A stretch of DNA of 64,000 bases from Gemmatimonadota bacterium (GTDB lineage: Bacteria; 4572-55; J002). Positions within the stretch are counted from its first letter, which is position 1, and every line of letters begins with the position of its first letter. Positions 56,081-61,851 of this stretch are shown here, piece after piece. The stretch is from positions 16,878-80,877 of the forward strand of contig RFFQ01000095.1 of NCBI GenBank assembly GCA_003697105.1. The letters run 5' to 3'. The notes below the pieces were generated by a model that saw only the letters and a program-made list of their open reading frames with translations, did not search any database and was not told where the DNA came from. A program made the translations under genes and the position numbers.

Positions 56081-56125
56081 ACCATGATTTTGGGGGTGGC
56101 AGGCTTCAAAATCAAATTTTCTCCC

Positions 56126-56154
56126 TTGACAGTTCTGATGGTGGGTTTTATATT
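56126..56154 (+). promoter_or_regulatory. Strong promoter of the leader-ABC exporter cassette
   Basis: TTGACA (56126-56131), exactly 17 bp, TATATT (56149-56154), 46 bp after the DUF2723 stop. Transcription should start near 56161, about 390 nt before the first exporter gene. Confidence 0.8.
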
Positions 56155-56195
56155 CGGCTAACTTGCAGTAAAACTCGATTTTTTGAGGAATTATA

Positions 56196-56348
56196 ATGAT
56201 AATCCGTATGAATCATTTTCACTTTAATCTCTGGCACATGAAAGGGTGCGTTTTCATGATGAACATGAACGCTAATTTTTGTTCCCTTCGCCGGCTGGTA
56301 CCTACCGGCGATATTGGTGTTTCAGGGGAGGAGTCTATCCATCGGTGA
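56196..56348 (+). CDS. Leader peptide ORF upstream of the ABC exporter
   Basis: A 50-codon frame with a GAGG site seven bases before the ATG, about 35 nt after the expected start of transcription. The peptide begins MIIRMNHFHFNLWHMKGCVF and is rich in Met (6), Asn (5), His (4) and Phe (4), with a cluster of HFHFNLWH at positions 7-14. A short G/C-rich hairpin (tcgccgg 56288-56294 with ccggcga 56305-56311) lies inside the second half, and two terminator hairpins follow its stop. This is the layout of a regulatory leader peptide whose translation controls read-through. It is not a known protein to me. Confidence 0.6.
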   Translation: MIIRMNHFHFNLWHMKGCVFMMNMNANFCSLRRLVPTGDIGVSGEESIHR

Positions 56349-56377
56349 GATTCAGCGGTAACTAAGAGATTGAGCAC

Positions 56378-56421
56378 AAGCCACGGATATGACTTCTACC
56401 GTATCCGTGGCTTATTTTGTT
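56378..56421 (+). terminator. Leader terminator hairpin 1
   Basis: aagccacggata (56378-56389) pairs perfectly with tatccgtggctt (56402-56413) around 12 nt, followed by ATTTTGTTT. It starts 30 nt after the stop of the leader ORF and lies between the cassette promoter and its first gene. Confidence 0.8.
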
Positions 56422-56447
56422 TAAACGGCAACCTCTCTTGGGTTGGT

Positions 56448-56488
56448 AAGCCACGGATTCAAATACTGAGTCCGTGGCTTTTCTTTTT
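56448..56488 (+). terminator. Leader terminator hairpin 2, same stem as hairpin 1
   Basis: aagccacgga (56448-56457) pairs with tccgtggctt (56471-56480), followed by TTCTTTTT. Its arms are identical in ten bases to those of hairpin 1, so the arms of the two hairpins can also pair with each other and form alternative structures. No promoter is visible between this site and the ATG at 56551. Confidence 0.8.
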
Positions 56489-56550
56489 GGTGTGATCTAC
56501 GAAATCGGGATTTGTACTCATCATTTAACATCCAAAATGGAGATAGAACA

Positions 56551-58431
56551 ATGGGTCACAAGCTCAAACAACTTTGGCGTTTGATGCAGGGTGAAGAAAA
56601 ACGGTACTGGGGAGCGATTTTAGCACTCGGTTTTGCTACTGTATTTGTATTTATGGTGCCGCTGGTGGTACGGATCACCATTGATTCGATCATCGGTGAT
56701 AAACCCCTTGATGCGCCCGGCTGGATTGTCTCCGCCATTCACCGGGTGGGGGGCGTTGAGTTTTTGCAACACCATTTATGGGTGATTGCCTTGATAATGG
56801 TTGTGTTGACCGCCGGACAGGGCGTGTTCATGTATCTTAAAGGTCGTTGGTCGGCAGAAGCAGCAGAATCTATGGCAAAACGACTGCGAGAGCAGTTATA
56901 CGACCATTTACAAAAACTCCCATTTGCCTACCATTCCCGGGCGGAAACCGGTGACCTCATTCAGCGGTGTACCTCGGACGTAGAGACGATCCGCCGCTTT
57001 TTTGCGGTGCAATTTGTGGAAGTAGGACGGGCGCTAATGATGCTTGCGTTGGTCTTGCCCATTATGCTTTCCTTAGATGTGCAGATGACTCTGGTGGCAA
57101 TGGCGGCGGTGCCGGTTATTATTGCTTTTGCCGTCTTCTTTTTCATTAAAGTGAAAGCCGCTTTTCAACTTTCGGATGAAGCTGAAGGTGAACTTTCTAC
57201 CGTGTTGCAGGAAAATTTAACCGGTATTCGTGTGGTACGGGCGTTTGCGCGGCATGATTATGAAATCGATAAATTTGATGCGAAAAATGTTGATTTTCGG
57301 GATAAAACATACCGTTTGATTACCCTGTTAGCACTGTATTGGGGGCTTTCGGATTTAATTTGTCTAAGCCAGATTGCGGCAGTGCTTGTTGCGGGGGCAT
57401 ACTTTGCTACACAAGGCACGCTGACGCTGGGCACCGTGGTTGTGTTTGTCACGTATGAGGGGATGTTGTTGTGGCCTATCCGTCACATGGGACGGGTACT
57501 GACCGATATGGGCAAAGCGTTAGTCTCTATCGGGCGAATTCAGGAGATTCTGGATGAACCTCAAGAGGATATGCTCCAGGGGTATCCACCTGAGGGACAT
57601 GATACATTGAAAGGTGAGTTGGTTTTTGACCGGTTGTCGTTTGGTTATACTCCAGATTTGCCGGTGTTGAAGGAGGTTTCCTTCCGCATTCAACCGGGAC
57701 AAACTGTGGCGATCATGGGTCCCACAGGAGCGGGTAAATCGACTCTCGTCAACCTAATTCCGCGCCTGTATGATTACCAGCAGGGTTCTATCCGGCTGGA
57801 TGGGCGTGAATTGAACACGTATGACCGTCACTGGCTACGCCAACAAATCGCGATTGTCCTCCAGGAGCCTTTTTTGTACTCCAAAACGATCCGTGACAAC
57901 ATCCGCTTGAGCCGCAAAAGTGCACCAGACCGCGAGGTGTATGACGCCGCTTCGGTTGCATCGATTCATGACGTCATCCTTGATTTTGAAAAAGGGTATG
58001 ATACCGCGGTGGGAGAGCGGGGGGTAACGCTTTCCGGTGGGCAGAAACAGCGGATTGCGATCGCCCGGGCAATTTTGCAAAATGCCCCCATCCTCATTTT
58101 TGATGATTCGCTCAGTGCGGTGGATACCGAAACTGAAGCCAAGATTCAACGGGCATTGGCGCAACGAGCCGGACGGGCAACAACGATCATCATTGCGCAC
58201 CGCTTGACGACGGTGAAACATGCGGATTTGATTCTGGTACTGGAAGACGGGCGGGTAACGCAAATTGGTAATCATGACCAACTTATGCGGCAAGATGGCT
58301 TATACCGCCGCATCTGGAACATCCAACATGCTTTGGAGCAGGATATTGCCGATGAAATCGGTGAATCGAACGAATTTTATCCGGTGGATGATGATTCCCG
58401 GATCGATGAACCGGTCTTAACCCGTTCGTAA
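56551..58431 (+). CDS. ABC exporter half-transporter 1 (degenerate Walker B)
   Basis: 627 residues from the ATG at 56551 (GGAG site). An N-terminal six-helix type IV exporter domain (residues about 20-330) is followed by an NBD with Walker A GPTGAGKST (390-398), signature LSGGQKQ (494 on), Walker B ILIFDDSLSAVD and H-loop IAHRL. The catalytic Glu after Walker B is replaced by Asp519, as in the degenerate subunit of heterodimeric exporters such as BmrCD or TM287/288. The signature is canonical. The partner is probably the product of 59956-61851, which has the opposite pattern. Substrates are likely drugs, lipids or peptides. Expression is behind the leader described upstream. Confidence 0.9.
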   Translation: MGHKLKQLWRLMQGEEKRYWGAILALGFATVFVFMVPLVVRITIDSIIGDKPLDAPGWIVSAIHRVGGVEFLQHHLWVIALIMVVLTAGQGVFMYLKGRWSAEAAESMAKRLREQLYDHLQKLPFAYHSRAETGDLIQRCTSDVETIRRFFAVQFVEVGRALMMLALVLPIMLSLDVQMTLVAMAAVPVIIAFAVFFFIKVKAAFQLSDEAEGELSTVLQENLTGIRVVRAFARHDYEIDKFDAKNVDFRDKTYRLITLLALYWGLSDLICLSQIAAVLVAGAYFATQGTLTLGTVVVFVTYEGMLLWPIRHMGRVLTDMGKALVSIGRIQEILDEPQEDMLQGYPPEGHDTLKGELVFDRLSFGYTPDLPVLKEVSFRIQPGQTVAIMGPTGAGKSTLVNLIPRLYDYQQGSIRLDGRELNTYDRHWLRQQIAIVLQEPFLYSKTIRDNIRLSRKSAPDREVYDAASVASIHDVILDFEKGYDTAVGERGVTLSGGQKQRIAIARAILQNAPILIFDDSLSAVDTETEAKIQRALAQRAGRATTIIIAHRLTTVKHADLILVLEDGRVTQIGNHDQLMRQDGLYRRIWNIQHALEQDIADEIGESNEFYPVDDDSRIDEPVLTRS

Positions 58432-58517
58432 GGGGGGACGTGACGCCACTCACCCATTTTGATCTAGTTGTTTTAGGATTGTCCGTTATTTTTGCCCTAT
58501 TTAATCCGGAGGGGATG

Positions 58518-59291
58518 ATGAAAAAAGCATTCAAAACCACTTTTGATGAGATCCCAGCCTTGTATGATGAAGTTCGTCCAACGTATCCAGCACCTTTAAT
58601 CGAGGATATTATCACGTTGTCAAATTTGCGGGACAACGCCTCGATTGTTGAGATTGGGTGCGGAACAGGTCAGGCGACAACGCCTTTTTTAGAACGGGGT
58701 TATTCCGTGCTCGCAGTGGAGTTAGGGCAACATCTGGCGGAATTTACCCGGCAAAAATTTGCAAATTATGCCCATTTTGCTGTTGAAGTGGCGAGTTTTG
58801 AAGCGTGGCAACCCCCAGATTCGCAATTTGATCTGTTGATCGCCGGGCAGGTGTTCCACTGGATTGAACCGGAATTGGGGTTGAACAAAGCGGCATCCAT
58901 CTTAAAGCCGAATGGGTCGATTGCCCTCTTTTGGAATACAGATGTCTCTTGGGAAACGCCGTTTTACCACGCAACAAACGCCATCTATGAACGTTTCTAT
59001 GTGGAACGTCCTAAAGCCCAAAAACCGGGTACAGGGTCGGATTTATACGCCGAACATCTCGCCCAACATCCTGACTTTATAAAATTTCAGACCCGTATCT
59101 ATCCGTGGCAGGAAACGTACACCAAAGAACGGTACTTTAAACTATTGGATACCTTTTCCCCGCACCGGGTTCTTGAACCGGAGGTACGGCATCAATTTTA
59201 TGATGAACTGGCACAAGTGGTTGACCAATTTGGGGGAAATGTTACTCGATTTTATGAAGCTGTATTGCTCATCGCTAAACGAAAGGACTAA
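58518..59291 (+). CDS. Class I SAM-dependent methyltransferase inside the exporter cassette
   Basis: 257 residues from the ATG at 58518; the GGAGG site five bases upstream favours it over the ATG at 58515. IVEIGCGTGQATTPFLERG is motif I, FDLLIAGQVFHWIEPELGLNKAASILKPNGSIALFW is the motif around post-I and II, and the rest matches the Methyltransf_11/trans-aconitate-methyltransferase-like group. The substrate is unknown; it may be a drug, a metabolite or an rRNA-like target, but there are no RNA-binding extensions. It lies 86 bp after exporter gene 1 and 3 bp before the acetyltransferase, so it belongs to the cassette transcript. Confidence 0.85.
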   Translation: MKKAFKTTFDEIPALYDEVRPTYPAPLIEDIITLSNLRDNASIVEIGCGTGQATTPFLERGYSVLAVELGQHLAEFTRQKFANYAHFAVEVASFEAWQPPDSQFDLLIAGQVFHWIEPELGLNKAASILKPNGSIALFWNTDVSWETPFYHATNAIYERFYVERPKAQKPGTGSDLYAEHLAQHPDFIKFQTRIYPWQETYTKERYFKLLDTFSPHRVLEPEVRHQFYDELAQVVDQFGGNVTRFYEAVLLIAKRKD

Positions 59292-59294
59292 CTC

Positions 59295-59843
59295 ATGTTT
59301 AAATGGCAGATTGATGACCATCTGGAATTAGGTCTGTTGGAGTGGCGTCATGCTGAAGAATTATTCGCTGTGGTCGATGCGAATCGAGCCTATCTGCGGG
59401 AGTGGTTGCCGTGGGTGGATGGATCGAAAACGGTCGCGGATTCTCTGGATTTTATCCAGCGCAGTGCCCAGCAATGGGCAGATAACCGCGGTTTTCAAGC
59501 GTGTATCCTCTTCAAGGGCAATATTGCCGGAATGATCGGCTTTCATCGGGTCGATTGGCAGGATCACAAGTGTGAAATCGGTTATTGGCTTCGGGCAGAT
59601 TTACAAGGGCAGGGTATCGTGACTAAATGCTGTCAGGCATTAGTTGACTTTGCCTTTACCGAATGGCAGATGAATCGAGTTGAAATCCACTGTGGTGCCG
59701 GAAACATCAAAAGTCAGGCAATTCCGGTACGGTTGGGGTTTGTGCAGGAAGGTATTCAACGTCAGGCGGCAAAATTGCGCGATCAGTTTGTTGATCATGT
59801 CATCTTTAGCCAGTTAAGGGACGAATGGAGTGCCAGACGTTAA
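59295..59843 (+). CDS. GNAT acetyltransferase (RimJ/RimL type)
   Basis: 182 residues. The family pattern is complete: LRLGLLEWRHAEELFAVVDANRAYLREWLPWVDG-like N-terminus, IGFHRVDWQDHKCEIGYWLRADLQGQGIVTKCCQALVDFAF with the acetyl-CoA binding QGQGI, and NRVEIHCGAGNIKSQAIPVRLGFVQEGI. Members acetylate N-termini of ribosomal proteins, other proteins, or antibiotics. An AAGGA site precedes the ATG, three bases after the methyltransferase stop. Its place between the two exporter halves suggests that it modifies the exported compound or its target; this is inference. Confidence 0.9.
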   Translation: MFKWQIDDHLELGLLEWRHAEELFAVVDANRAYLREWLPWVDGSKTVADSLDFIQRSAQQWADNRGFQACILFKGNIAGMIGFHRVDWQDHKCEIGYWLRADLQGQGIVTKCCQALVDFAFTEWQMNRVEIHCGAGNIKSQAIPVRLGFVQEGIQRQAAKLRDQFVDHVIFSQLRDEWSARR

Positions 59844-59955: not shown

Positions 59956-61851
59956 ATGTCATCTTATGAAGCATTTCAAGAAGAAGATTATTCCAAACGG
60001 TTTGATCTCGCACTTTGGAAGAAAGTGTTGCGGTTTACGCTACCACACAAAAAGTATATGATTTTACTGGCAGTATTTATGGTTTCACTAGCGGCATTGG
60101 ATGCATCCTTGCCCTTGCTCACGATGTACGCCATTGATCATTTTATTGCCAAGAACACGCTGGAGGGGTTACCTCTCTTTGTGTTGATTTATCTGGTGAT
60201 TATTATCGGATTTTCGTTGGTTGTGTTTTGCTTTATTTCGATTGCCGGACGGATTGAAACGTATGTCTGTTATGATATTCGTACAGCCGGTTTCAAGCGG
60301 TTGCAGGAACTTTCCTTCAGTTATTTTGATCGAAAACCGGTCGGTTGGTTAATGGCACGTATGACCTCCGATATTCAGCGTTTATCGGATACCATTGCTT
60401 GGGGTGTGGTCGATTTTGTCTGGGGAACAACGATGATGGCAGGTATTGCGCTGGTGATGCTCTATCTCAACTGGAAAATAGGGCTGATTGTGCTGACCGT
60501 TGTGCCGATGCTGGCGATTGTGAGCCTCTATTTCCAAAAGATGATCCTCAAATCGTACCGTAATGTTCGTAAATTGAATTCCCGGATTACCGCGAGTTTC
60601 AATGAGGGCATCATGGGGGCAAAAACGACGAAGACGTTGGTGCGCGAAGCAGAAAATCTGCAAGAATTCAAGGAACTCACTGGCGGGATGTACCGGTCTT
60701 CCGTTTTAGCGGCGGTACAGTCGTCGCTCTATTTACCATTTGTGCTGGTGATTGGTGCCATCGGATCGGGATTAGCCATCTGGTTTGGGGGTTCGGGAGT
60801 CATTGCGGGCACCCTCACCTACGGAACGTTGGTTGCGTTTATCTCGTATGCCCAGCAGTTTTTTAATCCGGTACAGGAACTTGCCCGTATTTTCGCCGAG
60901 TTGCAGAATGCGCAAGCGTCTGCCGAGCGAGTGATGTCTATGATTGAAACCGAACCGGAAATTAAAGATGACCCGCAAGTTCTACAACAGTACGAAAGGG
61001 TACACCATCCACCCCAAAATGGGAAGCAACGCGGTGTAAGTACTACCAGAGTGATGTCCCAACAAGACCGGAGTGTCCCCCGGATGAGAGGTCAGATCGA
61101 GTTTTGTCATGTGGATTTTGCCTACAAGGAAGGACAACACGTCCTCTCGGACTTTAATCTGACCGTCCGTCCGGGGGAAACCATCGCCTTGGTAGGCGAG
61201 ACCGGTGCCGGGAAAAGTACCATTGTGAATCTGGCTTGCCGGTTTTACGAACCCACCGGCGGGATCATCAAAATTGATGGTACGGATTACACCCGGTTAC
61301 CGCTCCACTGGATTCATTCAAACTTGGGTGTGGTGTTACAATCTCCCCATTTATTTAGTGGTACCATTTTGGAAAACATCCGCTATGGGCGGTTGGATGC
61401 CACCGATGAACAGGTGGTAGAGGCGGCAAAGTTGGTACATGCGCATCACTTTATCACTACGTTTGAAAACGGCTATCATACGGAAGTGGGCGAGGGGGGT
61501 AGTTTGCTCTCCACCGGGCAGAAGCAGTTGATCTCGTTTGCACGTGCGATATTAGCCGATCCTGCCCTGTTTATTTTAGATGAAGCGACTTCTTCAGTGG
61601 ATACGGAAACTGAGCAACTCATCCAAAAAGCGATTGATCGCGTACTGGAAAACCGTACCAGTTTCATCATTGCCCACCGGCTTTCAACCATCCGGGCGGC
61701 AGACCGAATTTTAGTGCTCGAATATGGCAAGATCATCGAACAAGGCAACCACCATGACCTATTGTTGAAAAAGGGTCATTACTATAACTTGTACACCCAA
61801 CAGTTTGTGCATGAACATGAGGAAGTCATGCTCGGGGCTTGTCAAGCGTGA
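59956..61851 (+). CDS. ABC exporter half-transporter 2 (consensus Walker B, altered signature)
   Basis: 631 residues with a GAGGTG site. A six-helix exporter domain (about 25-320) precedes a linker of about 50 polar residues (HHPPQNGKQRGVSTTRVMSQ) and an NBD with Walker A GETGAGKST (414-422), Walker B LFILDEATSSVD with the catalytic Glu543, and H-loop IAHRLST. The signature is LSTGQKQ, with Thr520 in place of the second Gly. This is the mirror image of exporter 1, which has a good signature but a bad Walker B. Together they would form one canonical and one degenerate ATP site. A strong terminator follows directly. Confidence 0.9.
   Translation: MSSYEAFQEEDYSKRFDLALWKKVLRFTLPHKKYMILLAVFMVSLAALDASLPLLTMYAIDHFIAKNTLEGLPLFVLIYLVIIIGFSLVVFCFISIAGRIETYVCYDIRTAGFKRLQELSFSYFDRKPVGWLMARMTSDIQRLSDTIAWGVVDFVWGTTMMAGIALVMLYLNWKIGLIVLTVVPMLAIVSLYFQKMILKSYRNVRKLNSRITASFNEGIMGAKTTKTLVREAENLQEFKELTGGMYRSSVLAAVQSSLYLPFVLVIGAIGSGLAIWFGGSGVIAGTLTYGTLVAFISYAQQFFNPVQELARIFAELQNAQASAERVMSMIETEPEIKDDPQVLQQYERVHHPPQNGKQRGVSTTRVMSQQDRSVPRMRGQIEFCHVDFAYKEGQHVLSDFNLTVRPGETIALVGETGAGKSTIVNLACRFYEPTGGIIKIDGTDYTRLPLHWIHSNLGVVLQSPHLFSGTILENIRYGRLDATDEQVVEAAKLVHAHHFITTFENGYHTEVGEGGSLLSTGQKQLISFARAILADPALFILDEATSSVDTETEQLIQKAIDRVLENRTSFIIAHRLSTIRAADRILVLEYGKIIEQGNHHDLLLKKGHYYNLYTQQFVHEHEEVMLGACQA

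Follow-up and report, generated by a model that had tools for sequence, protein, structure and literature searches.

Most of what is known about inducible exporter attenuators comes from a small number of Gram-positive models. In the bmrBCD operon of Bacillus subtilis, which is induced by ribosome-targeting antibiotics, the bmrB leader comprises a 162 bp ORF with its own promoter, one intrinsic terminator located within the ORF and an antiterminator, and a heterodimeric ABC exporter is expressed by read-through (Reilman et al. 2014, PMC4191407). The mef(E)/mel efflux operon of Streptococcus pneumoniae is also preceded by a leader-peptide transcription attenuator, with a single terminator and an 8-residue peptide resembling other macrolide leaders (PMC4335068). 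Two adjacent Rho-independent terminators follow the leader peptide of ermK in Bacillus licheniformis (PMC4335068). Its target is a 23S rRNA methylase, and the leader encodes the conserved drug-stalling peptide MTHSMRLR. The ermK leader reportedly adopts two mutually exclusive conformations, as stated in a 1991 abstract. For patAB of S. pneumoniae, the available part of the source predicts a terminator, an antiterminator and an anti-antiterminator before the PatAB ABC exporter, with a single terminator that is the only element tested and with no leader ORF described in that part (PMC4319486). The rimP-leader of Gammaproteobacteria has a second tandem terminator upstream and a potential antiterminator, but it precedes a different gene, its stem motifs are inverse instead of identical, and the part of the source at hand mentions no leader peptide (PMC2965389). 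Within the open-access literature, a scope outside which most subscription papers fall, we found no leader-peptide attenuator with shared-arm tandem terminators; two-terminator leaders (ermK) and exporter leaders (bmrB, mef(E)) are already known in this literature, and the present locus combines both, with shared arms.

The locus described here precedes an exporter operon in the window, i.e. the whole stretch of 64,000 nucleotides that was analysed. It shares with bmrB the leader ORF with its own promoter, intrinsic termination, a predicted antiterminator and an operon read by read-through into two ABC exporter halves, with mef(E)/mel the position of a leader-peptide attenuator ahead of an efflux operon, and with ermK the order of a leader peptide and two adjacent terminators. 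Unlike in bmrB, there are two terminators, both are located 3' of the stop codon, and their arms are shared. In contrast to trp/his-type attenuators, there is neither a conserved codon run for a sensed amino acid nor a biosynthetic operon. The locus is probably a ribosome-mediated transcription attenuator with two coupled terminators, and the attenuator part alone is, as a prediction from sequence, well supported by comparison. This reading is based on the parts themselves, their conserved geometry, the identity of arms within each locus combined with their change between loci, and the pairing potential.

All parts of the locus are on the forward strand. The upstream TPR gene is closed at its 3' end by a terminator-like hairpin (56085-56114; 11 pairs and a T-rich tail) that ends 12 nt upstream of the -35 element, directly before the promoter, so that the exporter operon is probably transcribed as a separate unit. 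The sigma-70-type, promoter-like sequence TTGACA-17-TATATT (56126-56154) matches the consensus at 11/12 positions and is followed by a GAGG Shine-Dalgarno sequence (56185-56188) just upstream of the ATG of the leader ORF (56196-56348, stop codon 56346-56348), whose 50-aa product MIIRMNHFHFNLWHMKGCVFMMNMNANFCSLRRLVPTGDIGVSGEESIHR had no match in a Pfam/NCBIfam search. A G/C hairpin within the ORF (56288-56311; -13.6 kcal/mol, z -3.4), which is not kept in all relatives, is possibly an RNA-polymerase pause site. The first terminator (T1, 56378-56413) begins 29 nt 3' of the stop codon and folds with 14 pairs (-23.6 kcal/mol, z -7.6) between arm 1 (56378-56391) and arm 1' (56400-56413, followed by ATTTTGTTT). 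The second terminator (T2, 56448-56480) likewise has 14 pairs (-24.5 kcal/mol, z -6.0), here between arm 2 (56448-56461) and arm 2' (56467-56480, followed by TTCTTTTT). Arms 1 and 2 are identical over 10-11 nt, and arms can therefore be exchanged between the terminators: the 3' arm of T1 (56403-56414) is able to form 12 Watson-Crick pairs with the 5' arm of T2 (56447-56458), and the 5' arm of T1 is able to form 10 pairs with the 3' arm of T2. The original prediction had named the near-consensus promoter, the 50-codon ORF with its GAGG site, the internal hairpin, the two terminators with identical arms and their cross pairing, and each of these parts is borne out. It had also stated that no promoter is visible after the terminators; from the sole promoter-like match 3' of T2 (56525-56552, 9/12), transcription would start within the exporter gene. 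Covariance models revealed no riboswitch, T-box or other Rfam family at the leader. The whole window contains a single Rfam match, a 6S RNA (RF00013, 18208-18402 on the reverse strand, 61.5 bits).

Domain searches of the window placed two ABC exporter halves in a single operon downstream of the leader: half A (56551-58431, 626 aa, PF00664+PF00005) and half B (59956-61851, 631 aa), whose PDB matches include YheH (BmrD), though not as the top match. The target is a predicted heterodimeric, drug-type ABC exporter with a putative multidrug role. The halves are separated (58440-59843) by a class I methyltransferase (58512-59291, with 58440 as an alternative start) and a RimL-like GNAT acetyltransferase (59295-59843, by domain match), which are possible drug- or peptide-modifying partners; in the same-class genome G001 and in Orenia metallireducens the exporter halves adjoin.

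Bacterial intergenic regions frequently carry palindromic elements, and the hairpins might accordingly have arisen by chance or belong to a dispersed palindromic element, in either case without a regulatory function. The window's genome does hold such elements, for instance the repeats AGGACTGGCAGTCCT on L096 (4545-4586 and 4770-4809). However, the arm pair GCCACGGA...TCCGTGGC forms a hairpin at just these two sites in the 4.18-Mb genome and is therefore not a dispersed repeat. We further scanned for 6-mers in the order x...x'...x...x', blind to position. In a background of 378 kb, comprising the window and 314 kb from its genome and the class relative, this order was found only in the leader and in two palindromic repeats, and it appeared in 0/500 dinucleotide shuffles of the window leader. 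Together with a geometry that is conserved ahead of the same exporter, these results make a chance or repeat origin hardly credible.

A search of 60 genomes with the leader DNA returned short stretches only and no homologous leader, and relatives were therefore gathered by the protein sequence of exporter half A. Orthologs were found in G001, the one same-class genome in the sample (63% identity; locus L033), in O. metallireducens (57%; L013), in a truncated Cloacimonas copy (65%), at loci in scattered lineages and in many Bacillota; phylum searches around G118, G208 and G149 added no relatives, and the genome sample contained no recognisable close relative of Orenia. The same layout is present at seven loci, namely the window, L033, L013, L045, L050, L051 and L048: a leader ORF of 17-50 codons with a purine-rich ribosome-binding site is followed after 26-44 nt by T1 and after a further 50-78 nt by arm 2/T2. 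In the order given, the distance from the stop codon to the T1 arm is 29, 34, 32, 44, 37, 33 and 26 nt, and that from the T1 arm to arm 2 is 70, 64, 78, 52, 51, 50 and 52 nt. Promoter-like sites precede the leader ORF with 8-11/12 matches in L013, L045, L050 and L051 and with 7/12 in L033 and L048. In the exporter tree the seven loci do not form one clade; four changes are needed, two of which are forced by well-supported branches, which means that the device is ancient and was lost in places, or arose repeatedly.

The blind scan recovered the shared-arm order in 6/46 ortholog upstream regions (window, L013, L033, L045, L050 and L051), with the other 40/46 scanned regions showing no shared arms; shuffled leaders gave the order 0-9 times per 500. 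Within each locus the arms agree, whereas T1 and T2 show no relation to each other in their loops and spacers. Five distinct arm sets were found in all (GCCACGGA in the window, GCCGCG, ACCACAGG, GCCCGCTC and ACCCGCTC), with arm cores GCCGCG in G001, ACCACAG in Orenia and CCCGCTC in the others; the cores were counted by script, as MAFFT misaligned these GC-rich segments. Arm 2 matches arm 1' of its own locus in 8/8 pairs at 7/7 loci compared with 4.3/8 for arms of other loci, and for the five distinct sets the true assignment of arm 2 to arm 1' ranks best among 120, but as the cores for the pairing, spacing and energy tables were picked with arm 1 = arm 2, the pairing table is partly built in and the blind 6-mer scan is the independent test. 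Two observations are informative because the choice of cores does not imply them: in L033, arm 2 is a better match for arm 1' (8 Watson-Crick pairs) than arm 1, the partner within the T1 stem (6 Watson-Crick and 2 G-U pairs), and in L048, arm 2 is kept although arm 2' is gone and there is therefore no T2. By eye, arm 2 of L048 could pair with the exporter start region (CGCTCG with CGGGCG), and the second lock of this locus may act on translation instead of transcription. Conservation in relatives, on which the original prediction was to stand or fall, was thus found for architecture and pairing but not for sequence.

Tandem terminators are common, and T2 might simply be a duplicate of T1 that stops leaking polymerases, the two being independent fail-safe terminators and the identity of their arms a leftover of the duplication. 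According to the fold energies, the state with both T1 and T2 formed is indeed the more stable one at most loci. After antitermination, T2 is favoured over the helix of arms 1' and 2 at 5/6 loci (by 1.6-5 kcal/mol in four of them and by 11 kcal/mol in Orenia), and L051 favours the 1':2 helix. A duplication leftover would, however, have to account for arms that stay identical next to unrelated loops and spacers, across distant lineages with differing arm sequences, and for the retention of arm 2 in L048 without a second terminator; moreover, an independent second terminator would defeat induction. We therefore regard a mere fail-safe pair as unlikely.

Without an antiterminator, an element that the original prediction overlooked, a pair of terminators with a common stem could not be induced. 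When the leader is folded with the 5' arm and loop of T1 but without the 3' arm, the 3' end of the ORF pairs with the T1 5' arm, and in most of the seven loci this antiterminator reaches into the T1 loop. In the window, the predicted 5' strand (arm 0, AGGAGTCTATCC, 56329-56340) pairs with GGATA(T)GACTTCT (56385-56397), which covers part of arm 1 and the loop. When each complete leader is searched for the best pairing partner of arm 1, this partner is always located between -35 and +13 relative to the stop codon (7/7 loci). Compared with shuffled sequences, the duplex energy gave p values of 0.106 for the window, 0.001 for L013, L050 and L051, 0/1000 for L033 and L045, and 0.014 for L048; a stricter test of expected pairs gave 0.39 for the window, 0.36 for L048 and 0.002-0.03 for the others (Fisher 1e-5). 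Taken singly, the predicted antiterminator of the window is statistically weak and unexceptional, and it is carried by the seven-locus comparison.

To follow the effect of ribosome position, we simulated folding with a ribosome placed on the leader. At 7/7 loci, a ribosome at the start codon leaves 8.5-15.5 antiterminator pairs and one at the stop codon 0-3.1, and in the window the switch occurs as the ribosome moves from codon 40 to codon 44. In energy, T1 has an advantage over the antiterminated state of 3-6 kcal/mol in five loci and of ~10 kcal/mol in the window, where the antiterminator must therefore win kinetically; in L050 the two states are nearly balanced (-0.5). In Orenia and L051, the simulated antiterminator is weaker also when the leader is untranslated, resembling bmrB, where expression fell when translation was blocked (PMC4191407). 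For Orenia the sequence itself offers an explanation, as arm 0 can pair with the ribosome-binding site of the leader (TCTTTATGACCT with AGGTCATAAAGA).

The leader peptides bear on the signal that the ribosome would report. The original prediction had pointed to the cluster HFHFNLWH (codons 7-14) as a possible sensor of stalling by an antibiotic or of His, Phe or Trp shortage, and a stall at these codons does leave arm 0 free in the simulation. Yet such a cluster is present in 0/6 related leaders and in no leader of the Bacillota family f277 (see below), and the exporter operon has no amino-acid biosynthesis gene among its domain-annotated genes. An amino-acid attenuator is thus very improbable, and of the original prediction, the leader-ORF attenuator with mutually exclusive folds before an exporter is supported by the conserved layout and pairing, and the HFHFNLWH sensing is unsupported. 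Alternatively, the nascent peptide might sense one particular antibiotic, as a drug-specific arrest peptide of the ErmK/MefE type. The general circuit is as in the mef(E) and erm(K) leaders (PMC4335068), but the lengths of the seven leaders vary between 17 and 50 aa, an arrest peptide of the MT(H/A)SMRLR type or an MRLR-like site is absent from all seven, and comparison of the peptides revealed no visible common motif, a result that speaks against both amino-acid sensing and a specific arrest peptide. We consider an arrest peptide improbable. A general response to slowed translation is a better fit than His/Phe/Trp sensing, and the most likely inducer would be any condition that impedes elongation, for example a ribosome-targeting antibiotic.

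For the coupled attenuator we infer a course of events in which the ORF is translated, folding follows a kinetic order and the terminators are linked by a domino step. Transcription would begin just 3' of 56154. Under free translation, the ribosome would get to the stop codon (56346-56348) and mask arm 0 (56329-56340), T1 would fold and terminate, and T2 would stop polymerases leaking through T1. If the ribosome stalled within about the first 40 codons, arm 0 would be open as the 5' arm and loop of T1 emerge, and would pair with 56385-56397 and block T1. Arm 1', left unused, would then capture the identical arm 2 before arm 2' is made, so that T2 would fail and the operon would be read. Owing to the identical arms, the second lock would open only if the switch had opened the first one, and not upon leakage past a formed T1. 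The energies would permit such a kinetic switch. On the domino step taken alone we are evenly divided.

A second group of leaders, in the Bacillota family f277, has a related design. Six loci (L057, L103, L104, L106, L107 and L108) combine a 24-31-codon leader with two terminators and an antiterminator at the ORF end (p 0-0.042), and L105 has the same layout by eye. Pair counts of the antiterminator for five of these loci, from hand-chosen segments, contain three pairs changed on both sides, and the covariation score of these hand-chosen segments was equalled in 8/500 shuffles; sliding the partner by 1-3 columns reduced the pairing from 87% to 36-57%. The coupling of T1 and T2 is weaker than at the seven loci, with 7-9 pairs including G-U (p 0.002, 0.04, 0.18, 0.02, 0.29 and 0.72) and full arm sharing in L106. 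In L057 and L103-L108, the ORF contains, immediately 5' of arm 0, a conserved CTTCAC with complementarity to the GGTGAAG of the leader ribosome-binding site, likely forming an anti-antiterminator or a hairpin that sequesters the leader start.

Some further Bacillota orthologs have leaders with one terminator. In family f265, L069 and L081 have a single-terminator hairpin ~80 nt upstream of the exporter, in L069 after a leader ORF, a layout nearer to the bmrB arrangement. In family f32, L043, L044 and L046 have ORFs of 8-10 codons (MIKTDVII, MIYSGVILGN and MFLTINTAL) after a conserved GGTGAGGTG site and without terminators; this leader is maybe a translational attenuator for the same exporter.

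That structure and not sequence is conserved before the same exporters, in Orenia as well as in poorly known lineages, suggests an old and widespread control of such exporters by the progress of the ribosome. That the leader is a domino-coupled double lock which has long regulated one ABC exporter family, with at least four RNA arms compensatorily rewritten across distant lineages, is a proposal that we hold with about equal belief and doubt. If true, induced read-through would be passed on whereas leaky read-through would be blocked, and the coupling would offer a testable answer to the question of how serial terminators can be both tight and fully inducible.
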